A stretch of 64,000 nucleotides of DNA from Ignavibacteriales bacterium (GTDB lineage Bacteria > Bacteroidota > Ignavibacteria > Ignavibacteriales > Melioribacteraceae). Made by a program: the position numbers and the translations under genes. Shown piece by piece: positions 1-14,794 of this stretch. Position 1 is the first letter of the stretch. Each line of letters begins with the position of its first letter. The notes beneath the pieces are model-generated. The model ran no database searches, was not told where the DNA came from, and saw nothing but the letters and a program-made list of their open reading frames with translations. The stretch covers positions 1 through 64,000 of the forward strand of contig JAIOYW010000008.1 in NCBI GenBank assembly GCA_021740915.1. Reading direction: 5' to 3'.

Positions 1-1302
1 ACGGGACATGGACCAGTTCAGAAATATGAGAGCAAGACACCGGAAAACATTCTGATCGAAGATCCTTTTCCAATAAAAGAAAAAATGCTCCCGATTAAGA
101 AAGACAAAGTTGTGGCGATTCAGGGCATGGGTTTGACTACGTTTGATGTCGTTGCCGAGCTGACAATTGGCAGAGGAGGACGTTTCGTAACAGATACTAA
201 CGACAGAATGAGATACGAATCGTCCGGAAACGAACCCCGGATGATTCTTTTTTCCCGTTCCGGATTGCCGTTGCTCGCCCGCCCTGTGAACCAAAAAAGC
301 AGAATTGAACAGCGGACTGGAAAACATCTAACACGTGCAGTGATCGAAAAACTCCAGGGGAGAGGAAGAATAGATTTCGAGACCGAATTGTTTCCTTTAG
401 TAATTAAAGATATGGAAGAGGCATACTATCGGGCTTATTTAAGGAATTGCTGCCTGCCCACAGGATTAAAGGATCAGTTGGTTTCGCAGATGCTTGCAGG
501 CAGTGTAGATTGGATTGAGCAAATAGAAAGAGAGATTCCGGAACAGCAGCATTTTTCCTGGGAAAAGCTCAAAAAACCAATACCTTCAGAAGTCCTTACC
601 GATCCGGCAAAATTCACTGAATTTTTCAGTAAGTTTTTGAGAGAAGATCTTGAGCAGGCTAATATTGGAAATCTGGATAGCCCAATAAAAGCGGCGTGCG
701 ATGTATTGCGCGATCATCGTGAACTTATGGCGTTGGCGATGGACTTCAAGGGATTGACAGGTCAGTCGCAGAAATGGTTCTATGATGATTTGCTGCCTGT
801 AATGAAAAGGCTTAGCGTCGGTCCGCCTAAAGAGAGGATAGCCCAATTATTGGCACTGATTGAAGCAGGGTTAGTGAAGGCGGATTTTGGACCAGATACA
901 CGTTGCACAAGAAATGAGCATGGGTGGAAGGTTAGCTCCGGAGTCTGGCCGGATGTAACAGCCGGCGCAGACGTTTTAGTCCTTGCGAAACTTCCTGTAA
1001 ATGGACCTGAAAACGACCAATTATTAAGAAAATTAGTGGACAAAGGGATTGCGAAATACTTTAAAAATGATGAATTTTCAAGCATGGGATTAGATGTAAC
1101 GAAAACACTAAATTTGATAGATGCCCGGGGCAACACCGTCTCATCTATCTGGGCTCTTGGAGTAGTTACAGAGGGGACAAGATTCTATACGTTTTTTCTC
1201 CCGCGACCTTACAGCAGGTCAAGATTTGAAGAGGATGCTGATATTGCAGTTCGAACAATGTTTGAGCAATTGCATAAAATTGAGAGCGGCGGAATCATCT
1301 AA
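1..1302 (+). CDS. FAD/NAD(P)-binding protein, 5'-truncated by window edge
   Basis: The reading frame is already open at base 1 and runs 433 codons to the stop at 1302, so the start lies outside the window; the first ATG at 85 is internal. The motif GMGLTTFDVVAELTIGRGG (about residues 43-61 of the visible part) is the glycine-rich nucleotide-binding pattern of the FAD-NAD(P)-binding family (NAD_binding_9 type), whose members are often about 600 residues long. No membrane segment or signal is visible. It is 45 bp upstream of a GNAT gene and in line with an argininosuccinate-lyase-like gene, so the three are probably one operon. Family knowledge suggests a flavin-dependent oxidase or amine monooxygenase of small-molecule biosynthesis; the substrate cannot be read from sequence. 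The family call is fairly sure, the function is not. Confidence 0.75.
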   Translation, partial: TGHGPVQKYESKTPENILIEDPFPIKEKMLPIKKDKVVAIQGMGLTTFDVVAELTIGRGGRFVTDTNDRMRYESSGNEPRMILFSRSGLPLLARPVNQKSRIEQRTGKHLTRAVIEKLQGRGRIDFETELFPLVIKDMEEAYYRAYLRNCCLPTGLKDQLVSQMLAGSVDWIEQIEREIPEQQHFSWEKLKKPIPSEVLTDPAKFTEFFSKFLREDLEQANIGNLDSPIKAACDVLRDHRELMALAMDFKGLTGQSQKWFYDDLLPVMKRLSVGPPKERIAQLLALIEAGLVKADFGPDTRCTRNEHGWKVSSGVWPDVTAGADVLVLAKLPVNGPENDQLLRKLVDKGIAKYFKNDEFSSMGLDVTKTLNLIDARGNTVSSIWALGVVTEGTRFYTFFLPRPYSRSRFEEDADIAVRTMFEQLHKIESGGII

Positions 1303-1347
1303 ACCGAAACATTAAATTTTTCAAGAGAAGGATAGCCCGGTATTCAG

Positions 1348-1962
1348 ATGAAAATAGATAATACGGACACAAAATGGTCAATATCGCCAAATCTAAAAGG
1401 AGATTATGTTTCTATCGCGCCATTAAAATATGAGCATGAAGATGCATTAATCGAAGCTGTAAAAGATGGTGAACTTTGGAAACTATGGTATGCCAGGGTT
1501 CCAGCACCCGAAGGAATGAGAGTTGAAATCGAACGGCGACTCAAACTTGCGGAAGAAGGAAGAATGATGCCGTTTACAGTAATTGACAGCACTGGAAATG
1601 TCGTAGGAATGACCAGTTACCAGCTTCTTGACAGGTTAAATCGTCGTGTGGAAATCGGGTACACCTGGTATGCGACCAGAGTACAGAAAACACCTTTGAA
1701 TACCGAGGCAAAACTTTTACTTTTAACCCATGCATTTGAAGTTCTGGATTGTATAGCGGTTGGGTTTACAACATCAACATTTAATGAGCCGAGTCGTAAA
1801 GCAATTGAAAGGCTGGGCGCTAAACTGGATGGAATACTGAGAAACCACTCTATTCTGGCTGGCGGAATTATCAGAGATACCTGCTATTACAGTATTCTAA
1901 ACAGTGAATGGTCTGCTGTAAAAAAAAACCTCGTCTGGAAACTTGAAACTTATACTAAATGA
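1348..1962 (+). CDS. GNAT family N-acetyltransferase (RimJ/RimL type)
   Basis: A 204-residue protein of the RimJ/RimL-like branch of GNAT acetyltransferases, which move an acetyl group from acetyl-CoA to an amine. The central block EIGYTWYATRVQKTPLNTEA and the following NEPSRKAIERLGAKLDG segment match the usual beta4-beta5 and CoA-binding part of this branch. It sits 45 bp after the FAD/NAD(P)-binding gene and 19 bp before the lyase-like gene, all on the same strand, which suggests co-transcription. The likely role is acetylation of a small-molecule amine made by its neighbours, but members of this branch also acetylate ribosomal proteins and antibiotics. Substrate unknown. Confidence 0.85.
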   Translation: MKIDNTDTKWSISPNLKGDYVSIAPLKYEHEDALIEAVKDGELWKLWYARVPAPEGMRVEIERRLKLAEEGRMMPFTVIDSTGNVVGMTSYQLLDRLNRRVEIGYTWYATRVQKTPLNTEAKLLLLTHAFEVLDCIAVGFTTSTFNEPSRKAIERLGAKLDGILRNHSILAGGIIRDTCYYSILNSEWSAVKKNLVWKLETYTK

Positions 1963-1981
1963 AAAGAAAAAATTCTTCTAA

Positions 1982-3430
1982 ATGAATAATAACGATCAGA
2001 ATATATTTTCAGAACGCGATCCATTCTACTGGTATTGCCGGATGGACAAGGCATCGACTTTAGCAACTCTGAATGCAGGAATAATTACAAATGCCCAGGC
2101 AGATGAAATAGCAAGGGGTATTAATAAACTAATTCAGTGGGGAGATGAAAACAAACAGAGCCGACCGACCGACTATCTGGATGTACAGGCAAGGTTGTTT
2201 AAAATTGCAGGGCCGGTGGCCTCACGAATGCATTCCGGCAGAAGTCGCCAGGATATGCTCGTCACTTTACATCGTTTACTATTAAGGGATCGTTTTCTTT
2301 TACTTTTTGAAAGACTATTAGATATCCGGTCAGAATTTCTTTCCCGCGCACGCGAAAACAGATCCGTTATCGTTCCCACCTATACAAACGGTGTTCAGGC
2401 GCAGCCGGCTCTTTTCGGTCACCTAATGAGTGGTTATGAATCCCCGCTTGCAAGAAGTACCCGGCGATTTATGGAATGCTATACCCGGCTTAATCAGTCA
2501 CCGTTAGGTTCGGCAGCATTAGCCACATCGCGGTTTCCTCTCAATAGAGAGCTTCTTTCTGAACTTTTGGGTTTTAACGGAATAGTTGAAAATTCTTTTG
2601 ATGCTGCACAGATAGCAGTAGTGGATACCGGTATTGAATGTGCGCAGATCGCAGCTCTTATTGCGTTAAGTTTGAATATGTTTACCCAGGACGTTCACGC
2701 CCAGTTTCATCATGTCAGGCCATGGATACAACTAACTGATCCGGATTTGCTCAGCGCGAGTACGCTTATGCCGCAGAAAAGAAATCCGGTTGTACTCAAC
2801 CGTGCAAGACTGCTGGGAAGTGAAGTTGTCGGCGCATCTGTAACAGCAGCCTTTGCTGCACATAACGTGAGTTCCGGGCTTACGGACTATAAGCGAATGG
2901 ACGCCTCCAACACTTTGGAACTTGCAATCAAATTAATGTCCGAAATATCAACAATTCTTAGAGGAATGAGGCTCGATAGTCAAGCCGCACTTGATGAACT
3001 TGAATCCGAATTTACTACCACATCGGAATTGGCGGCTTTACTGCAGGAACGAGCCGACATTCCCCTTTCAATTGCTCATGGATTTGCCTCAAAAATGGTT
3101 GATACCGCCCGCAAGGAAAGATTTTCACTTAAATCTATTCCTTTTACGATTATTAATACTATATTCTCTGAAGTTATAGCAGAGAAGTCAGATTTGAAAA
3201 CAAAAGAATTTCCTTTTTCAGAGCAAGAATTCAGAATCGCTGTCCATCCTCAGACAATGGTCAACAATTATAGAGGTAAAGGAGGATCGTCACCCGAGGA
3301 GACAGAAAAATTGTTTGAACAAGGTTTCCGCAAACTGGATTCAGATCGCGATTGGCTTCGAATAACGAAAGCTGCCGTCAACGAATCTGAGAAGCAGCTT
3401 GACGCTAAGTTCAACAATCTGATTAAATGA
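1982..3430 (+). CDS. Argininosuccinate lyase-like enzyme with altered catalytic site
   Basis: A 482-residue member of the argininosuccinate lyase branch of the fumarase/aspartase superfamily. The signatures are MHSGRSRQD (83-91; ArgH has HTGRSRND), AQPALFGH (140-147), SPLGSAALA (173-181), the mobile loop SASTLMPQKRNP (258-269) and a C-terminal GKGGSSPEE. The loop serine (S260) and lysine (K266) are kept. The ArgH segment GYTHLQ reads TYTNGV here, so the catalytic histidine is replaced by N136. RSRND has become RSRQD. No other arginine gene is nearby. With a FAD protein and a GNAT upstream, this is more likely a C-N lyase releasing fumarate from some N-substituted succinate than a true ArgH. 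Fold certain, substrate unknown. Confidence 0.8.
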   Translation: MNNNDQNIFSERDPFYWYCRMDKASTLATLNAGIITNAQADEIARGINKLIQWGDENKQSRPTDYLDVQARLFKIAGPVASRMHSGRSRQDMLVTLHRLLLRDRFLLLFERLLDIRSEFLSRARENRSVIVPTYTNGVQAQPALFGHLMSGYESPLARSTRRFMECYTRLNQSPLGSAALATSRFPLNRELLSELLGFNGIVENSFDAAQIAVVDTGIECAQIAALIALSLNMFTQDVHAQFHHVRPWIQLTDPDLLSASTLMPQKRNPVVLNRARLLGSEVVGASVTAAFAAHNVSSGLTDYKRMDASNTLELAIKLMSEISTILRGMRLDSQAALDELESEFTTTSELAALLQERADIPLSIAHGFASKMVDTARKERFSLKSIPFTIINTIFSEVIAEKSDLKTKEFPFSEQEFRIAVHPQTMVNNYRGKGGSSPEETEKLFEQGFRKLDSDRDWLRITKAAVNESEKQLDAKFNNLIK

Positions 3431-3805
3431 TCATAGCCTGTGCCCCGCTACCCGCATAAAATTTCAGGCAAGCAGTAACTGTCCCAAACTGGAATTATTC
3501 TCAGAAGGGTGAACTAATTATCAATGCTGTAGAGCGCTCACTGATGAGCTATTAGCACTCTTCCAGGGAATTAAAATTGTCCAAATTCCGGATTCGCAAT
3601 ATATTATTATTATATCCGGAAAGCCCTGGTTTTTGCTAGTGAGCAGTATTTAAATAATCAAAGAATTTATCAAATTAAGCCGATCGGCGAACTATTAAGA
3701 CTCCGGTAATTCAAATCAAAAAAACGTTATTATTATATATGGGGCTGGATAAAAGGAATAAATTAACCTGACAAAATTAAGTTTATTATTTTTGCATATT
3801 AATCT
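3431..3805. other. Intergenic region, 375 bp, AT-rich
   Basis: No gene or RNA is recognised here. The stretch becomes AT-rich toward the right and contains two similar TATTATTATATA runs (near 3603 and 3729). A good match to a Bacteroidota-type -7 box lies at its right end, just before the kinase gene. No clear terminator follows the lyase gene. Confidence 0.5.
3787..3794 (+). promoter_or_regulatory. Candidate -7 promoter box (TAnnTTTG)
   Basis: TATTTTTG matches the Bacteroidota -7 consensus TAnnTTTG exactly and lies 20 bp before the ATG at 3815, which would give a very short leader. No convincing -33 TTG element is found at the usual distance (CCTGACA near 3767 is the closest). Suggestive only. 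Confidence 0.3.
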
Positions 3806-3814
3806 GTGGAAACT

Positions 3815-5254
3815 ATGATCGAAAAAGAAAAATTATTAAGTGATGCCTTTGAGAAAATCATCGGGAATAAACCGGAGAAAATTTCTAAGCTACCCCAATC
3901 CGGATCATACCGTGAGTATTATCGTCTTGAGTTGGCAGAAAATTCTCTGATCGGGGCAATAAACAGCGACAAGAAAGAGAACATTGCTTTTATAGAATTC
4001 ACCAGACATTTTTTAAAATGCGGGCTGCCGGTTCCCAGGATCGAATATGAAGATCTTCAAAACAATATTTATCTTCTTCAGGATCTTGGGGACATAACCC
4101 TTTTTAGTCATTTGCAGAATGTCCGCTCAGGCGATCAGTTTCCACCAGAGTTAGTAAGTATTTACAAAAAAATTCTGGAACTTCTTCCGAAATTTCAAAT
4201 TGAAGCGTCAGTAGGACTTGATTATTCCAAATGCTATCCACGGGCATCTTTCGATAAGCAGTCGATGATGTGGGACCTGAATTATTTCAAATATTATTTT
4301 CTTAAACTCGCTAAAATCCCATTCGAAGAGCAATCTCTGGAGGAAGATTTTCAGACATTCAGCGATTATCTCTTAACATGCGGCACAGAATACTTCCTTT
4401 ACCGTGATTTCCAATCCAGGAACATAATGCTCAGTGAGGGGGAAATCTTTTTCATTGATTACCAGGGGGGAAGAAAAGGCGCGTTGCAATATGATGTTGC
4501 CTCGCTAATCTATGACGCAAAAGCTAATATCCCGGTTATACTTCGAGAAGAATTATTGGATCATTATATAAGCACACTAAAAAAATATATTGACGTAGAT
4601 GAAAAACCCTTCCGACAATATTATTATGGCTATGTTCTGATCAGGATAATGCAGGCGATGGGGGCATACGGATTCAGAGGCTTCTATGAAAAGAAGGAGC
4701 ATTTTCTTAAAAGTATTCCATATGCTCTTGAAAACCTTGAATGGTTAATTCGCAATACTGATATTCCTTTAGAAATTCCAGCATTGAGAGAGGTTTGGAC
4801 CAATCTTATCCGCTCAGATGAATTGGCAAAATTTCGTGATAATGCAAAAGATAATGAATTAAAAGTGACCATTACGAGTTTTTCATACAAAGATGGAGTC
4901 CCTGAAGATTTTTCAGGTAATGGCGGCGGATTTGTTTTTGACTGCAGAGCTCTGCACAACCCAGGGCGATATCTTGAGTTTCGAGATCTTAACGGACATG
5001 ATGCACCGGTAAAAGAATTTCTTAACCGGGAAAGAGCGGTGGCTCAATTCCTGAACAGCGTGTACAACCTGGTTGATGGATCTGTTGAAATTTACCTTCA
5101 GCGGGGATTCTCCGATTTGATGGTGAATTTCGGCTGTACAGGCGGTCAGCACCGGAGTGTATATTGCGCAGAGAGTTTAGGGGCACATTTACGTAAAAAG
5201 TTTGATGTAAAAGTTTTGGTAAATCACACAAGGTTTCCTGGAAAAACTAAATGA
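3815..5254 (+). CDS. AmgK-like sugar kinase fused to RapZ C-terminal domain
   Basis: The first ~340 residues are an aminoglycoside-phosphotransferase-fold kinase: the catalytic loop reads YRDFQSRN and the metal-binding motif FIDYQ is followed by GALQYDVASL. This is close to AmgK, which phosphorylates N-acetylmuramic acid or GlcNAc at the anomeric carbon. The last ~130 residues are a RapZ C-terminal domain, shown by FVFDCRALHNPG and GCTGGQHRSVYCAE. In enterobacteria that domain senses glucosamine-6-phosphate. The stop overlaps the start of a MurU-like gene by 4 bp (ATGA), the classic AmgK-MurU pairing. I prefer the ATG at 3815; an in-frame GTG at 3806 would add three residues. Kinase class is good; the exact sugar is inferred. 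Confidence 0.85.
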   Translation: MIEKEKLLSDAFEKIIGNKPEKISKLPQSGSYREYYRLELAENSLIGAINSDKKENIAFIEFTRHFLKCGLPVPRIEYEDLQNNIYLLQDLGDITLFSHLQNVRSGDQFPPELVSIYKKILELLPKFQIEASVGLDYSKCYPRASFDKQSMMWDLNYFKYYFLKLAKIPFEEQSLEEDFQTFSDYLLTCGTEYFLYRDFQSRNIMLSEGEIFFIDYQGGRKGALQYDVASLIYDAKANIPVILREELLDHYISTLKKYIDVDEKPFRQYYYGYVLIRIMQAMGAYGFRGFYEKKEHFLKSIPYALENLEWLIRNTDIPLEIPALREVWTNLIRSDELAKFRDNAKDNELKVTITSFSYKDGVPEDFSGNGGGFVFDCRALHNPGRYLEFRDLNGHDAPVKEFLNRERAVAQFLNSVYNLVDGSVEIYLQRGFSDLMVNFGCTGGQHRSVYCAESLGAHLRKKFDVKVLVNHTRFPGKTK

Positions 5255-5994
5255 GAGCAATGATCCTTGCCGCCGGATTAGGCACCCGATTACGACCCTT
5301 AACAGGAAGTCTGCCGAAAGCAATGGTGGAAATAGATGGTAAACCGCTTATACAGATAGTGATTGAGAGATTAAAGCAGGCAGGATTCAGGGAAATTATT
5401 ATAAATCTGCATCATTTTCCGGAAAAAATAATGGGTTTTCTTAATGAAAATCAATTTTTCGGATTGCCGATTCGGGACTCTGCCGAAGAAGAACTGCTTG
5501 ATACCGGCGGTGGAATAAAAAAAGCAATACAATCTTTCGGTTTATCCGATCAGCCATTATTAGTTCATAATGTGGATATACTCTGTAATTTCGATCTGTC
5601 ATCAATCTATAAGTTTGCCGTTAATTCAGATTATGATGCGGTTGTCGCTGTAAATAGCCGTCAAACATCAAGATATTTACTTTTTGATGAAAACAATTTG
5701 CTGGCAGGCTGGCTGAATAAAAAAACAGGAGAGCGTATAGAAGTTGAAGGTAAAAGCGCTGTGAAAGAAATGGCTTATTCCGGAATACAGTTAATAAAAC
5801 CCTCAGTCTTTAAGAAATTCCCGCCGGAAAACAAATTTTCGATTATAGATTTTTATCTTAATGCTGCACAAGAGATAAAAATCATGGGACTCGAGATGAA
5901 AAATCAGGTTTGGTTTGATATTGGAAAATCAGTGAACGATATTAAGGAAGCCGAAAAGATACTGCGATTAATCAATTCCACGAAAATCATGTGA
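5251..5994 (+). CDS. Sugar-1-phosphate nucleotidyltransferase (MurU-like)
   Basis: A 247-residue nucleotidyltransferase of the NTP_transferase family. The N-terminus carries the nucleotide-binding signature LAAGLGTRLRPLTGSLPKA (residues 6-24), and HNVDILCNFDL (around 105-115) holds the metal-binding Asp. MurU joins UMP to MurNAc-1-phosphate, bypassing de novo UDP-MurNAc synthesis. The 4-bp overlap with the upstream AmgK-like kinase indicates translational coupling and supports this role over mannose- or glucose-1-phosphate transfer, though those cannot be excluded. Length is close to known MurU proteins. Confidence 0.82.
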   Translation: MRAMILAAGLGTRLRPLTGSLPKAMVEIDGKPLIQIVIERLKQAGFREIIINLHHFPEKIMGFLNENQFFGLPIRDSAEEELLDTGGGIKKAIQSFGLSDQPLLVHNVDILCNFDLSSIYKFAVNSDYDAVVAVNSRQTSRYLLFDENNLLAGWLNKKTGERIEVEGKSAVKEMAYSGIQLIKPSVFKKFPPENKFSIIDFYLNAAQEIKIMGLEMKNQVWFDIGKSVNDIKEAEKILRLINSTKIM

Positions 5995-6164
5995 GGAGAC
6001 TCATATCCGCCATAAAAAATCCATCTAAATATGTTTTTATAAAGATTTTTAATTAATATTTAATTATTTTATAAACATAAACACTGTTTCAAACGTAATC
6101 GGAGTTAATGGTGTTACAGATGCTCCGGAACATTTAATTTTCTATATATAAACCGGAGGTTTAT

Positions 6165-7109
6165 ATGGGAGAGAAAAAGAAAAAGAAAAAACCAGAAGAA
6201 ACAAAACCTGAATCCGGAAGCGTTATCACAGAAGTAAAAGACTCAAAGAAATCCGGAAAGAAAAAAACCGTAACCCTTGAAAAACTGCAAACCCAGCTTG
6301 AAACAACAGACTCCGCCGAGGCCAAAGAAAAAAAGAAACTCGAAAAAAAATTCTATGAAAAGGAATTGCGCCGTCTGCAAATCGAACTTGTCAAGCTTCA
6401 GTACTGGATCAAAGAACAGGGGCTTAAAGTTGTTGTAATATTTGAAGGAAGAGATGCGGCGGGAAAAGGGGGGACAATTAAAAGAATAACAGAATGTCTG
6501 AATCCTAGAATCTGCCGTGTTGTTGCACTTCCAGCTCCCACCGAACGTGAGAAAACTCAATGGTATTTTGAGCGGTATATTCAGCACCTGCCATCCGCGG
6601 GAGAAATGGTAATTATGGATAGAAGCTGGTATAACAGAAGCGGTGTTGAAAGGGTGATGGGATTTTGTACTGAAGCCGATTACCGCGAATTTCTGAGATC
6701 GTGCCCGGAGTTCGAAAGAATGCTTGTCAGATCCGGAATAACTCTTATCAAGTACTGGTTTTCAGTCAGTGAAGAGGAACAGGAAAAACGTTTCCAGGCA
6801 AGATTACAGGACAAAACAAAGCTATGGAAATTAAGCCCAATGGACTTACAATCCCGCGCCCGATGGGTTGAGTACTCAAAAGCCAAAGATGAAATGTTTG
6901 CATATACGGATATCAAACAGGCTCAATGGTACGTTGTTGATGCGGATGACAAGAAAAAGGCGCGTCTGAACTGTATTCATCATCTTCTCAGTATGATTGA
7001 TTACAAAGATCTGACCCCGAAACCTCTCGAACTTCCGCCGCGGCCAAAGGCCCACGGATACATTCGTCCCCCCATAACAGATCAGACATTTGTGCCAAAA
7101 GTATATTAA
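6165..7109 (+). CDS. ppk2: Polyphosphate kinase 2 (PPK2 family)
   Basis: A 314-residue PPK2. Family enzymes use polyphosphate to phosphorylate nucleotides (mainly GDP or ADP to the triphosphate). Walker A is GRDAAGKGG (95-103), and the Walker B/lid region MDRSWYNRSGVERVMG follows at about 151. Tail segments such as KLSPMDLQSRARW are typical of class I. The first ~65 residues are an extra, very lysine-rich and probably disordered segment. A strong ribosome site (GGAGG at 6154-6158) precedes the ATG. The gene stands alone, with no ppk1 or ppx nearby. Confidence in the family is high; class and nucleotide preference are inferred. Confidence 0.95.
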   Translation: MGEKKKKKKPEETKPESGSVITEVKDSKKSGKKKTVTLEKLQTQLETTDSAEAKEKKKLEKKFYEKELRRLQIELVKLQYWIKEQGLKVVVIFEGRDAAGKGGTIKRITECLNPRICRVVALPAPTEREKTQWYFERYIQHLPSAGEMVIMDRSWYNRSGVERVMGFCTEADYREFLRSCPEFERMLVRSGITLIKYWFSVSEEEQEKRFQARLQDKTKLWKLSPMDLQSRARWVEYSKAKDEMFAYTDIKQAQWYVVDADDKKKARLNCIHHLLSMIDYKDLTPKPLELPPRPKAHGYIRPPITDQTFVPKVY

Positions 7110-7456
7110 TCGCTTTCGGAGATAGTGATCTCTGTTTCTGAACAAATAATCATTCCCTGCAACAGGATTCTTGTTGCAGGGAGTGTAATAACCCGCCTAC
7201 GAATCAGAACACCATTAGAATATTTGATTTTACTCAGGTTTATTTTGAGTCAGCAGGAAAACTATTCGAGGAACAAACTATTTTTATCTGAAGATATTTA
7301 TCATAAATAATGAGCAGAATTTTCTGAGACGCCGCCAGATAATCATCAGAAAACGTACAATTCAGGTAATTCGGAAATCGGATAAATCATTTACACATCC
7401 AATGAAACTTTATAAGTTCTGACAGGTAAAAAAATCACAAATAAATAAGGATAAAT
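7110..7456. other. Intergenic region, 347 bp
   Basis: It contains the ppk2-distal hairpin at 7154-7182 and a smaller GAGAT/ATCTC hairpin near 7120-7135. Otherwise it is AT-rich with no gene I can support. AAGGA at 7447-7451 precedes the lipoprotein ATG. Confidence 0.5.
7154..7182 (+). terminator. 11-bp hairpin after ppk2
   Basis: TCCCTGCAACA (7154-7164) pairs perfectly with TGTTGCAGGGA (7172-7182) around a 7-base loop. No U-run follows, so it may be a weak terminator or an mRNA 3'-end stabiliser. Confidence 0.5.
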
Positions 7457-8026
7457 ATGTTAAAAAACTTACCCCTGATAATTCTTCTTACTGGCATTCT
7501 TTTTACAGCGTGCAGCAAAGAAGAACTTGTTCAGGAAAAAATAACAACACAAAGTGGAAATCTTTTATTTTCATTACCCGATGGATGGGTAAAGGAACAG
7601 CCGGCTTCTTCAATGAGACTTGCTCAATATAAATTACCGGGAGATGGAGGAAAAGATGCCGAACTGGCATTGTTCTATTTCCCTGGAACAGGTGGAGGCG
7701 TTGAAGACAATCTTACCCGGTGGTATGGACAATTCAGAGGAACTGATGGTAACTCCCCTGCTGCAAATGCAGAAAGAAATGAGCTAAAAGCAGATGGGAT
7801 GAGGATAACCACTATTTATTTTACAGGAACTTATCTTCGTTCATCCTCAATGATGATGGGCGGCGATATTGAAGAATTACCAGATTATGCTCTTCTTGGC
7901 GCGATCATCGAGGGTGGAGGAGCCCCCTGGTTTTTTAAGGCAACGGGCCCCCAGCCCACCATCGATAAATGGCGCGATTCGTTTTCAGGTATGCTGAAAA
8001 CCGCAAAAATCACTAAAGATCAATAA
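7457..8026 (+). CDS. Lipoprotein of unknown function
   Basis: A 189-residue exported lipoprotein. Its signal sequence ends in the lipobox LFTAC, so Cys19 would be lipid-modified. The mature part begins with a charged stretch and continues with a compact region containing FSLPDGWVKEQP, a pattern seen in periplasmic proteins with a single alpha/beta domain. I do not recognise a named family. Its last 14 bases overlap the end of the convergent saccharopine dehydrogenase family gene. Probably an envelope protein exposed at a membrane surface. Confidence 0.75.
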   Translation: MLKNLPLIILLTGILFTACSKEELVQEKITTQSGNLLFSLPDGWVKEQPASSMRLAQYKLPGDGGKDAELALFYFPGTGGGVEDNLTRWYGQFRGTDGNSPAANAERNELKADGMRITTIYFTGTYLRSSSMMMGGDIEELPDYALLGAIIEGGGAPWFFKATGPQPTIDKWRDSFSGMLKTAKITKDQ

Positions 8027-11342: not shown

Positions 11343-11515
11343 ATCATAAACACATCGTTTAGCAAAAACCGCATTATTTGAAGTAAATATTAATTTAAAG
11401 GCGGTTTAAATATTTCATTTAACAGATGAGGGGAGAATTTTTACTTTATTCGATATCCAAACATCATTAAATATTGTTTTATTATATTTCGCCGAAAAAT
11501 AACCGGATAATATAT

Positions 11516-12949
11516 TTGAATCAGGAATATGAAGTAATCATCGGGCTTGAAGTACACGCCCAGCTATCAACAAACACAAAACTTTTTTGCGGTTGTTCTG
11601 CCGCTTTTGGGGCTGAACCTAATACAAACATCTGCCCTGTTTGTCTTGGACACCCTGGGGCGCTGCCGGTACTTAACAAAAAGGCTGTTGATTATACAGT
11701 GCTTGCCGGAACTGCCCTGAATTGCAGAATCAACAGGCATTCGGTTTTTGCTCGAAAGAATTACTTTTATCCCGATCTGCCGAAAGGTTACCAGATATCA
11801 CAATTTGAGGAACCCTTCTGCGAAAATGGATTCCTTGAAATAAATATAGACGGGCTAGAAAAAAAAATAGGGATTACCCGTATTCATCTCGAGGAGGATG
11901 CCGGAAAATCAATCCACGACCAGGGATGGGAAACAAAACTTGATCTTAATCGATGCGGGGTCCCGCTTATCGAGATAGTGAGTGAACCGGATCTTAGAAG
12001 CGCCAGGGAAGCATATGAATATATGTTCAGATTGAGACAGATCGTCACATATTTAGGAGTATGCGATGGAAATATGGAAGAAGGATCGTTAAGATGTGAT
12101 GCCAATGTCAGTCTTCGTCCAAAAGGAACCAAAACATTCGGTACCCGGACTGAGATTAAAAACCTTAACAGTTTCCGACATGTAGAAAAGGCGATTGAAT
12201 ATGAGATCGGCAGACAAAAAGACATTTTGGAAAATGGCGGTAAAATTATTCAGGAAACTCTGCTGTGGGATTCCGAATCTGGAATTGTGAACCCTATGCG
12301 GGGAAAAGAGGAATCCGATGATTATCGATATTTCCCTGATCCGGACCTGCTGCCTGTTGTTATTTCGGACGAATGGCATAATAATATTATTAGCCTGATG
12401 CCTGAACTGCCCGCAGAAAAAATCAGACGTTACACACTTGAATATATCCTGCCGGCTTACGATGCAGAGGTTCTTACTTCATCGAGAGAAACAGCAGAAT
12501 ATTTTGAGGCAGTGATCCGGACAACAAAGGACTACAAATCGGCATCAAACTGGATAATGACAGAAGTAATGCGTATTTGTAATGAGACCAAAACAAGCAT
12601 TAATAATTTTCCCGTAAACCCCGAATCTCTTGCCAGAATGATAAACCTGATATCAGACGGGACTATCAGTGGGAAAATCGCTAAAGATATTTTTCCGATT
12701 ATGGTTGCTGAAGGAAAAGAACCGGAGCAAATAATTAAGGAGAAAAACCTCATCCAAATTTCTGATTCGAATGAAATTGAACGCATTATTAATTCTATTA
12801 TTGAAATCAATCAATCCTCAATCGAAGAATTCAGATCCGGAAAAGAAAAACTGTTTGGGTTTTTTGTCGGACAGGTTATGAAAGAGACCGGCGGTAAGGC
12901 AAATCCGAAAGTCGTGACGGAAATATTGAAAAAGAAACTTTCTCCTTAA
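11516..12949 (+). CDS. gatB: Asp-tRNA(Asn)/Glu-tRNA(Gln) amidotransferase subunit B
   Basis: GatB is the kinase and tRNA-binding subunit of the GatCAB complex that converts Glu-tRNA(Gln) or Asp-tRNA(Asn) to the amide form. Hallmarks are [13 protein letters not shown] at the N-terminus, [29 protein letters not shown], and the C-terminal YqeY-like tail. The start is most likely the TTG at 11516, giving [12 protein letters not shown], which fits known GatB starts; an upstream in-frame TTG at 11474 would add 14 unlikely residues. gatA and gatC are not in the window. A strong terminator follows. Length (477) is normal. Confidence 0.96.
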
Positions 12950-12959
12950 GAAAGCTATG

Positions 12960-12996
12960 AATTTGGCGATTGAAATCGTCAAATTTTTTGTTGTTT
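12960..12996 (+). terminator. Rho-independent terminator after gatB
   Basis: An 11-bp stem (12960-12970 with 12975-12985, one G-U pair, TGAA loop) is followed directly by a T-rich run to 12996. It begins 11 bp after the gatB stop. Confidence 0.85.
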
Positions 12997-13026
12997 TCAG
13001 AATGAAAGACAAATAATATTTCTAGG

Positions 13027-13048
13027 GAGCCGCATTAAATTGCGGCTC
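13027..13048 (-). terminator. GAGCCGCA hairpin between gatB and rib operon
   Basis: GAGCCGCA and TGCGGCTC form a perfect 8-bp stem with a 6-base loop. It lies downstream of ribH on the minus strand and could end the rib transcript. No strong U-run in that direction, so moderate confidence. Confidence 0.5.
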
Positions 13049-13074
13049 GAAATTTAACGAGAATATTTTTTCAA

Positions 13075-13539
13075 TTAAATTTTGGTGCTAAGATCAACCA
13101 TTTCAATAGCTGTAAGCGCAGCATCCCATCCCTTATTTCCCGATTTTGTTCCGGCGCGTTCAATTGCCTGCTCTATTGAATCAGCAGTGATTACCCCAAA
13201 AATTACGGGCAATCCGGTTTCAAGGCCTACTAAGGCAATACCCTTTGAAACTTCTGCAGCAACGTAATCAAAATGCGGAGTAGCACCCCGGATCACGGCA
13301 CCGAGGCAGATTACTCCATCATATTTTTTTGAGAGAGCCAGTTTTTTTGCTGCGTGAGGAATTTCGTAAGAACCAGGAACCCAAACGAGCGTTATTCCAT
13401 TTTCTTCTGCGCCATGTCGTTTCAGACAATCAAGTGCCCCCGAGATAAGACGGTTAGTAATAAACTCGTTAAACCTGCCCGCCACGATAGCAAATTTTTT
13501 ACCCTGGGCGTTCAACTGCCCTTCAATAACATTATGCAT
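13075..13539 (-). CDS. ribH: 6,7-dimethyl-8-ribityllumazine synthase
   Basis: A 154-residue lumazine synthase, the penultimate riboflavin enzyme, condensing 5-amino-6-ribitylaminouracil with dihydroxybutanone phosphate. The family motifs [28 protein letters not shown] and [17 protein letters not shown] are all present, the last including the catalytic histidine. It is the last gene of the rib operon and overlaps ribBA by 8 bp. Length is normal. It normally forms icosahedral shells, in some species around riboflavin synthase. Confidence 0.97.
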
Positions 13540-14794
13540 TTTTATCTTCCTTTATTGATTTCAAATTATCAGCGCCGAAAACATTAATAAGCAAATGCCC
13601 CATTTTATCTTTTTTTGTTCTCAAATATTTTTCATTTGAGCAGTTTGGTTCAATTTCAAGTGGAACCCGTTCAGTGATCTCAAGATCATAACCACGCAGA
13701 CCAATAATCTTATGAGGATTATTCGTCATTAATCTGATCTTTTTAATTTTTAGATCTTTTAGAATTTGTGCGCCGAATCCATAATCCCGCAGATCAGCTT
13801 TGAATCCAAGAATTTCGTTCGCCTCAACGGTGTCTTTGCCCGTTTCCTGCAACTCATAAGCCAAAAGTTTGTTTACAAGCCCGATTCCCCGTCCTTCCTG
13901 CTTCATATAAAGCACAGCTCCCTTTCCTTCCTGTTCAACTTTTCTGAGAGCCGCCGCAAGCTGATCGCCGCAATCACATCTCTGAGAGCCTAGTACATCC
14001 CCGGTAAAACACTCTGAGTGAACCCTTACGAGTACCGGGCTGCCATCGGAGACATCTCCTTTTATCAAGGCTAAAGCAAATTCTGAAGGATCGAGGATGT
14101 TTTCATAAAATAGAAGTTTGAAATTCCCATACCGGGAAGGCAGATCCACTGCCGCTTTACTTTTGACGAAAGACTCAGTTCTAACGCGGAATTTTATCAG
14201 ATCGGCAATCGTAATAATTTTAAGATTAAATTTATTTTTAAAGTCCATCAGAAGGTCGACACGCGCCATGGTGCCATCATCAGCCATAATTTCACAGAGT
14301 ACGCCAATCGGTTTTAATCCCGCAAGCCGGGCAAGGTCAGTAGCCGCTTCTGTGTGTCCGGCGCGTTTTAATACTCCGCCATTTTTCGCGATAAGAGGAA
14401 AAATATGACCGGGTCTTGCAAAGTCGTTTGGCCGCACTTTATCATCTGCAAGGGCACGAATGGTTGCCGCTCTGTCAAAAGCGGAAATTCCGGTTGAGGT
14501 TCCATGTATGTAATCAATAGTGACAGAAAAAGGTGTCGCATGTAATGCTGTATTGTGCGTGACCATAGGGGTCAGGTCAAGTTTTTCGGCAAGTTCCAGT
14601 GTAACCGGGGCACATAACATTCCCCGCCCCTCTTTTGTGATAAAATTAACATCGGAGGCAGTGATTTTTTCTGCCGCCATTATAAGGTCGCCTTCATTCT
14701 CACGATCTGCGTCGTCAATAACAATGACCATCCGGCCTTGTCTTATATCATCAAGTGCGGATTCGATAGAGTCAAATTTCAAATCATGATTCAT
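13532..14794 (-). CDS. ribBA: Bifunctional DHBP synthase / GTP cyclohydrolase II
   Basis: A 420-residue fusion. Residues 1-~205 are 3,4-dihydroxy-2-butanone 4-phosphate synthase (RibB), with the acidic loop [12 protein letters not shown] and the substrate segment RPGHIFPL. The rest is GTP cyclohydrolase II (RibA), with the zinc site [19 protein letters not shown] and the active-site EGRGIGL. Together they start both branches of riboflavin synthesis. It lies 5 bp after ribE and overlaps ribH by 8 bp. Both halves keep their key residues, so both activities are expected. Confidence 0.97.

Follow-up and report, generated by a model that had tools for sequence, protein, structure and literature searches.

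A rarely found flavoenzyme, acetyltransferase and lyase cassette in an Ignavibacteriales genome and its possible role in specialised metabolism

A close described counterpart of the genes considered here is found in fosfazinomycin biosynthesis, in which FzmM and FzmL make nitrite, FzmQ acetylates hydrazinosuccinate, and FzmR, annotated as an adenylosuccinate lyase, frees acetylhydrazine (PMC6133997). Hydrazinosuccinate itself is formed by KinJ/FzmP together with a ferredoxin; KinJ homologues are named in Actinomycetes, some Firmicutes and Burkholderia, and most KinJ clusters lack CreDE (PMC12154649). FzmM is 54% identical to the L-aspartate N-hydroxylase V2, and bacterial FzmM/CreE enzymes are mainly described as nitrite suppliers for N–N bonds (PMC10404684). 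An enzyme binding flavin adenine dinucleotide (FAD), a GNAT acetyltransferase and a lyase of the fumarate-releasing superfamily stand together in this hydrazine cassette (FzmL to FzmR; KinI to KinN), and the same combination occupies bases 1 to 3430 of the DNA analysed here, a stretch of 64,000 nucleotides (the window) from an Ignavibacteriales bacterium (GCA_021740915.1, contig JAIOYW010000008.1, positions 1 to 64,000, forward strand). A second genome of the phylum has the three genes in identical order, and the flavoenzyme has a changed aspartate site in both genomes. We tentatively read the cassette as an operon of three genes, self-contained and rarely found, that would serve specialised metabolism by N-oxygenation, N-acetylation and elimination of fumarate from an N-substituted aspartate.

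The three genes and their second occurrence

The cassette consists of the following open reading frames (ORFs):
1..1302, + strand, FAD/NADPH-dependent N-monooxygenase-like protein, 433 codons, open at the 5' end, relative of FzmM/CreE/V2
1348..1962, + strand, GNAT acetyltransferase, 204 aa, PF13302
1982..3430, + strand, aspartase/fumarase-superfamily lyase, 482 aa, PF00206

All three lie on one strand with gaps of 45 and 19 bases, as a preliminary description of the window had it. Base 1 of the window is also base 1 of its assembly contig (C13; the genome comprises 35 contigs and 4.35 Mb), so the FAD gene is truncated by the assembly, and about 200 N-terminal residues of its product are absent at this contig edge. 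The first 130 bases of the gene had no other copy in the assembly, short chance matches aside, and a search of the assembly with the N-terminal half of a longer FAD homologue (P0001) returned the C13 piece as the sole match. The truncated protein gave no Pfam match at E 0.001, and P0001 carries PF13454 (FAD-NAD(P)-binding).

A second cassette was found in a genome of another family of the phylum (G380), in which a contig of 5,164 bases (L099) carries the FAD, GNAT and lyase genes in the order seen in the window, with identities of 37%, 67% and 54%, respectively (the L099 lyase is partial, at the contig edge). That another genome has all three genes in this order makes chance very unlikely, and the possibility of chance ORFs was rejected. 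The reading frame of the L099 FAD gene stays open for 768 codons from a GTG and carries PF13454; upstream of it lie a gap of 345 bases and then the terminal part of a gene that gave no Pfam match. In view of this arrangement, the operon probably begins with the FAD gene, and the predicted operon probably consists of these three genes only. As to the earlier proposal that the operon continues off the window, the FAD gene is cut by the contig end, and the arrangement in L099 speaks against further operon genes before it. The L099 contig ends at the lyase, and the region downstream of the G380 lyase lies beyond it. The FAD and lyase genes of L099 also contain low-complexity inserts rich in Ser, Gln and Asp that are not in the window copies.

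The cassette appears to be rarely found. At E <= 1e-45, the lyase was detected in two of 395 genomes of the phylum, namely its own and G380, and additional sampling, covering 92 genomes from the family of G380 and 245 from the class to which the window belongs (overlapping the first 395), yielded no further lyase. On the gene-neighbourhood comparison suggested in the preliminary description, the same order was seen in a single further genome of this phylum. Beyond the phylum, sampling comprised a scan of genome contigs (80 of 544 confirmed stretches kept) and plasmids; at the loci kept from the contig scan, nothing related to the window lyase or GNAT was detected (tblastn, 1e-4; phmmer, 1e-5). 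Apart from the fosfazinomycin work, no report of a FAD-GNAT-lyase set was found in the literature covered, which mostly excluded subscription papers.

Active sites and relationships of the three enzymes

The relationship of the flavoenzyme to FzmM/CreE, proposed in the preliminary description, is upheld by both sequence and fold. Its only significant PDB sequence match was V2 (8cp2/8cp5; E 3.7e-48; chain residues 205-595 of 8cp2), the homology extending across the NADP domain and the helical substrate domain. A structure model built from 16 sequences (mean predicted local distance difference test score, pLDDT, 81) had a template modelling (TM) score of 0.81 to 8cp2 (E 8e-31), and the fold search returned only three chains under E 0.001, all from 8cp2/8cp5. 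In V2, the entry chamber holds aspartate via Arg13, Arg276, Asn413, Arg416 and Arg577, with Arg266, Arg409 and Arg412 nearby, and the N413E variant retained NADPH oxidation, with hydroxylated product not detected (PMC10404684). As judged from the alignment, much of this arginine cluster is present in the window protein (Arg266, Arg409, Arg412 and Arg577 in V2 numbering), whereas Arg276 is replaced by Gln, Asn413 by Glu and Arg416 by Ala, the last two aligning to window Glu241 and Ala244 (counted from base 1). The N-terminal positions Arg13, Trp51 and Asn62 of the aspartate hydroxylases fall within the part lost in the assembly gap.

The combination of Glu413 and Ala416 was found in two of 31 family members, which are the two cassettes, and in none of the 29 others; these 31 rows were chosen by the authors across contexts (24 from a 95-row set and seven added). 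Arg416 was present in 24 of the 31, including the six CreD-linked, the Parageobacillus and the Vibrio rows, and the other five members form a distant clade. In the larger, less varied 95-row alignment, in which a single gene was counted twice (L010 and L012), Asn413/Arg416 occurred in 80 rows and Arg416 in 87. The tree of the 31 rows, which includes V2 and leaves out FzmM and CreE themselves, placed the two cassette proteins in one clade (support 100/99) grouped with Vibrio, Stenoxybacter and Helicobacter members (100/99), outside a separate 12-row clade of V2, six CreD-linked enzymes and five others (100/100). A comparison of this kind had been suggested as a check of the hydrazine link, and the result went against it. 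The cassette flavoenzyme, differing from V2 in its entry chamber and its clade, would thus be an N-oxygenase that departs from the aspartate hydroxylases in substrate or in rounds of oxidation. A further related system is PcxL, a multi-hydroxylating 2-aminoethylphosphonate N-oxygenase that is grouped with FzmM, acts on a non-aspartate substrate and is only 17% identical to V2 (PMC10404684).

The other two genes were confirmed as a GNAT protein (PF13302, 54.8 bits; cut-off 25.4) and a lyase of the argininosuccinate/fumarase superfamily (PF00206, 112.4 bits; cut-off 27). Against the ArgH model TIGR00838 the lyase scored 203.5 bits, below the cut-off of 279.5, and it had no match at E 0.001 to the nitrosuccinate-lyase model NF052556, which was the best match of a CreD-like control protein. 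Its best PDB match was 6rx8 (E 3e-39; titled argininosuccinate lyase), which, like 6g3d, we take to be EDDS lyase. The genome encodes four PF00206 proteins, namely fumC, aspA and purB (each above its NCBIfam cut-off) and the cassette lyase, and none of the four, in this unclosed assembly, is a CreD/FzmL-like nitrosuccinate lyase. A structure prediction of the lyase from the single sequence had a mean pLDDT of 37 and was not used.

In a tree of 24 author-chosen rows, the lyases of the window and L099 were joined (100/99), and this pair was sister to five plasmid-borne lyases (99/99). The cassette lyase lay outside a clade formed by six ArgH proteins of relatives (96/98) and outside the CreD clade (100/100 as a group and 98/99 in the drawing). 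EDDS lyase sat on a long branch of unsure placement, which was not joined to the cassette with support. The lyase carries the motifs HSGRSRQDM and YTNGVQAQP, compared with HTARSRNDQ and YTHLQRAQP in the relatives' ArgH. Moreover, no ArgG was detected in its genome (no PF00764 match; control positive in 14 of 14). ArgH was above cut-off in 13 of 20 genomes (the own genome and 19 relatives), ArgG was above cut-off in 13 of 21, which are the same 13, and neither the own genome nor G380 had ArgG above cut-off. In one relative (G140), an ArgH fragment at a contig edge scored below cut-off. On these sequence comparisons the lyase is not ArgH, and the tree, which the preliminary description had proposed as a check, removes it from the housekeeping genes of arginine synthesis; that candidate was rejected for the lack of ArgG, the ArgH score below cut-off and the separate clade.

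Catalytic roles have been described for three SS-loop residues (the base Ser, a Lys and an Asn), for the leaving-group His and for Arg341, at the active-site entrance, and SSxMPxKRNP was proposed as the loop consensus of nitrating lyases (PMC13411527). In the cassette lyase the loop reads STLMPQKRNP, one residue off this consensus (purB of the same genome also has KRNP); in CreD numbering, Ser302, Lys308 and Asn310 are retained and Thr takes the place of Ser303. Where ArgH, AspA and FumC have the leaving-group His, the window lyase has Asn136, and Arg341 is replaced by Gly in both the window and L099 proteins. Because the retained residues bind and deprotonate the succinyl part, the window lyase likely releases fumarate. 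EDDS lyase and ArgH belong to the same superfamily and share the SS-loop, and EDDS lyase also lacks the leaving-group His, whereas the cassette lyase has Thr for the second Ser of the loop and RSRQ for RSRN, and groups with the plasmid-borne lyases in a clade joined to neither.

The nearest lyases outside the cassettes are the plasmid-borne ones, labelled argininosuccinate lyase or lyase family protein (e.g., L106 6923-8422 and L107 6914-8422), two of which have, by reading, an apparent N-terminal signal peptide that suggests a periplasmic lyase. In Paracoccus (L108 6986-9927), a YTNG-type lyase faces a 457-aa FAD/NAD(P)-binding protein, possibly another lyase-flavoenzyme pair; this FAD/NAD(P) protein is only remotely related to P0001 (E 8e-4) and not similar to the window FAD protein (E 0.15). 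No match to the window FAD protein, the GNAT or P0001 was found at the five plasmid lyase loci (tblastn, 1e-3).

For the GNAT, seven of the 395 phylum genomes had a match at E <= 1e-45, comprising its own, G380 (67%) and five others (44-49%), and in these five neither a FAD nor a lyase match lay within the approximately 1.5 kb fetched on either side. Plasmid relatives reached up to 58% identity, and the one whose region was inspected had neither partner. The GNAT thus looks to have been recruited from a widespread family. Its PDB relatives include PA3270 (1yre), reportedly the subject of the PacTA paper (PMC9561280); a role as the toxin of a toxin-antitoxin pair was considered and rejected, as none of the adjoining genes was recognised as a small, antitoxin-like one.

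Possible pathways

The gene set with its order and recurrence, the three superfamily memberships, the changed aspartate site and the retained catalytic residues of the lyase can be brought together in a putative pathway with a provisional order of steps, substrate and product. With NADPH and O2, the flavoenzyme would N-hydroxylate a small amine, the GNAT would transfer an acetyl group onto the oxidised nitrogen, and the lyase would remove fumarate from an N-substituted aspartate, the succinyl part being a disposable handle as in the chemistry of FzmR, CreD and ArgH. The expected product would be a small N-oxygenated, N-acylated compound of the hydroxamate type, not nitrite or acetylhydrazine. 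In a minimal version, which is doubtful in itself, aspartate would be N-hydroxylated and converted to N-acetyl-N-hydroxyaspartate, which would give acetohydroxamic acid and fumarate, with the remodelled entry chamber blocking the repeat oxidation known from V2; if true, this route would be the oxygen counterpart of the FzmQ/FzmR path to acetylhydrazine. More broadly, a FAD subfamily whose aspartate site is rewritten, and whose gene neighbours are a GNAT and a lyase from a clade of its own, would show that the FzmM/CreE family carries out further kinds of N-oxygenation in bacteria other than Actinomycetes.

Several points weigh against this three-step operon. The site varies between the two cassettes, as Arg266 is Lys and Arg577 is Ser in the L099 protein, and the two flavoenzymes are only 37% identical. 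The absence of any hydroxylated product from V2 N413E weakens the single-hydroxylation version too (PMC10404684), and, if the flavoenzyme acts on a compound other than aspartate, the connection of its step to that of the lyase is uncertain. In addition, the lyase loop, close to the nitrating consensus of PMC13411527, favours nitro chemistry, and the GNAT family is found apart from the other two genes, so that the role given to the GNAT rests on synteny in two genomes. Finally, the activities of all three enzymes are predicted, and the N-terminus of the flavoenzyme lies outside the assembled sequence.

A masking by fumarate as in fluopsin C biosynthesis is rather unlikely, and would have the lyase add a nucleophile to fumarate or remove fumarate last, with the flavoenzyme N-oxygenating the masked substrate and the GNAT tailoring it. 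The fluopsin C pathway employs two enzymes of this superfamily, FlcB and FlcC, for the addition and removal of fumarate (PMC13411527), and a substrate with additional groups would suit the altered FAD entry chamber, but there is one lyase here versus two in fluopsin, no iron-dependent oxidase was recognised adjoining the cassette, and FlcC has the Arg341 (PMC13411527) that the window lyase lacks.

The hydrazine route put forward in the preliminary description, in which aspartate would yield nitrite, hydrazinosuccinate would be made elsewhere in the cell, the GNAT would acetylate it and the lyase would free acetylhydrazine and fumarate, is unlikely for this cassette. The enzyme kinds do match FzmM, FzmQ and FzmR (PMC6133997), further genes could lie in the unassembled DNA before base 1, the heme enzyme could be encoded at a remote locus, and CreDE is missing from most KinJ clusters anyway (PMC12154649). 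However, the residues at positions 413 and 416 are altered, the flavoenzyme falls outside the CreD-linked clade, FzmL/CreD was not found in the assembly, the cassette lyase resembles ArgH, in contrast to the adenylosuccinate-lyase annotation of FzmR, and the groups in which KinJ homologues are named in the available text of PMC12154649 are those listed above. Genes like FzmN (glutamine-synthetase-like) and FzmO (amidase) were absent from the five genes scanned 3' of the lyase, the other side lying beyond the contig end, and a scan for ferredoxin motifs in 84 neighbour loci gave one doubtful match (L046, within a 372-aa ORF). The analogy was therefore well aimed and is partly supported, in that the enzyme set parallels the hydrazine enzymes, and the specific route is not favoured.

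Production of a nitro compound (nitrosuccinate or 3-nitropropionate), with the GNAT and lyase in accessory or protective roles, seems improbable. V2 itself gives 3-nitropropionate (PMC10404684), the lyase loop is near the nitrating consensus, and a Parageobacillus member of the FAD family adjoins a nitronate monooxygenase and two MFS transporters; that enzyme, however, retains Asn413/Arg416 and sits in the aspartate-hydroxylase clade, from which the cassette differs, the lyase lacks Arg341, and no nitronate monooxygenase or transporter family match was obtained among the five neighbouring genes scanned. An argininosuccinate lyase serving the organism's own arginine synthesis, with the FAD and GNAT genes as mere bystanders, is hardly credible, as the TIGR00838 match and the lack of another ArgH in the genome are outweighed by a score below cut-off, by the missing ArgG, present in all 13 genomes with ArgH above cut-off, and by the altered motifs and separate clade.

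Neighbouring genes and flavoenzyme relatives in other contexts

About 0.4 kb past the lyase, genes of another kind begin, comprising the AmgK-like kinase listed here, a MurU-like nucleotidyltransferase and PPK2:
3806-5254, AmgK-like sugar kinase fused to a RapZ C-terminal domain, followed by the MurU-like uridylyltransferase

The kinase had a match at E <= 1e-60 in seven of 20 genomes, its own included, and the kinase and MurU-like genes were adjacent in all four regions fetched from relatives (ORFs listed for two of them). Because none of the three cassette genes occurs at the AmgK-MurU pair in these four relatives (tblastn, 1e-5), the cassette looks to have been acquired as a unit. In one of these regions (L135), a GNAT-like ORF, recognised by reading, immediately precedes the kinase gene; it had no tblastn match to the cassette GNAT (1e-5) and no NCBIfam match (1e-20). 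The G+C content of the cassette is 43.1%, against 39.9% for the window. Nothing reached the Rfam gathering threshold in bases 1-8000, and a scan of 1200-3900 gave nine promoter-like (5.8 expected) and four terminator-like (2.7 expected) matches, which are uninformative. A role in anti-phage defence was rejected, as neither the three proteins nor P0001 had a PADLOC match at E 0.01.

Members of the FAD family also occur in other settings. On the Parageobacillus plasmid (L114 5356-10800), a FAD protein with the full aspartate signature adjoins an MFS transporter, the nitronate monooxygenase and a second MFS transporter, a run that looks like bacterial nitropropionate production with self-protection. 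Two Vibrio plasmids (L093 and L094, both 11488-14485) carry a FAD protein directly followed by an MFS transporter annotated as YbfB/YjiJ family, and in Stenoxybacter (L013 9504-12504) a FAD gene split over two frames is directly followed by an MFS transporter, assigned by reading; Asp413/Arg416 are present in all three. Two Streptomyces loci (L014 and L070) have two FAD paralogues each, of which one has the canonical aspartate site and the other Ala413. At L006-L008 and L010-L012, from other genomes of the phylum, the genes flanking a distant FAD relative encode a PALP (SbnA-like) enzyme and a pyridoxal-phosphate-dependent decarboxylase, the neighbours being assigned by Pfam for L006 and by reading for the remainder. 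On a Deefgea plasmid (L113 2994-7431), SbnA, SbnB, a FAD family protein and ThrH form one run with flanking insertion-sequence genes. Four Helicobacter plasmid records appeared in the search, and on one small Helicobacter pylori plasmid (L096 2796-4529) mobilisation genes lie near a gene for a family member with 30% identity.

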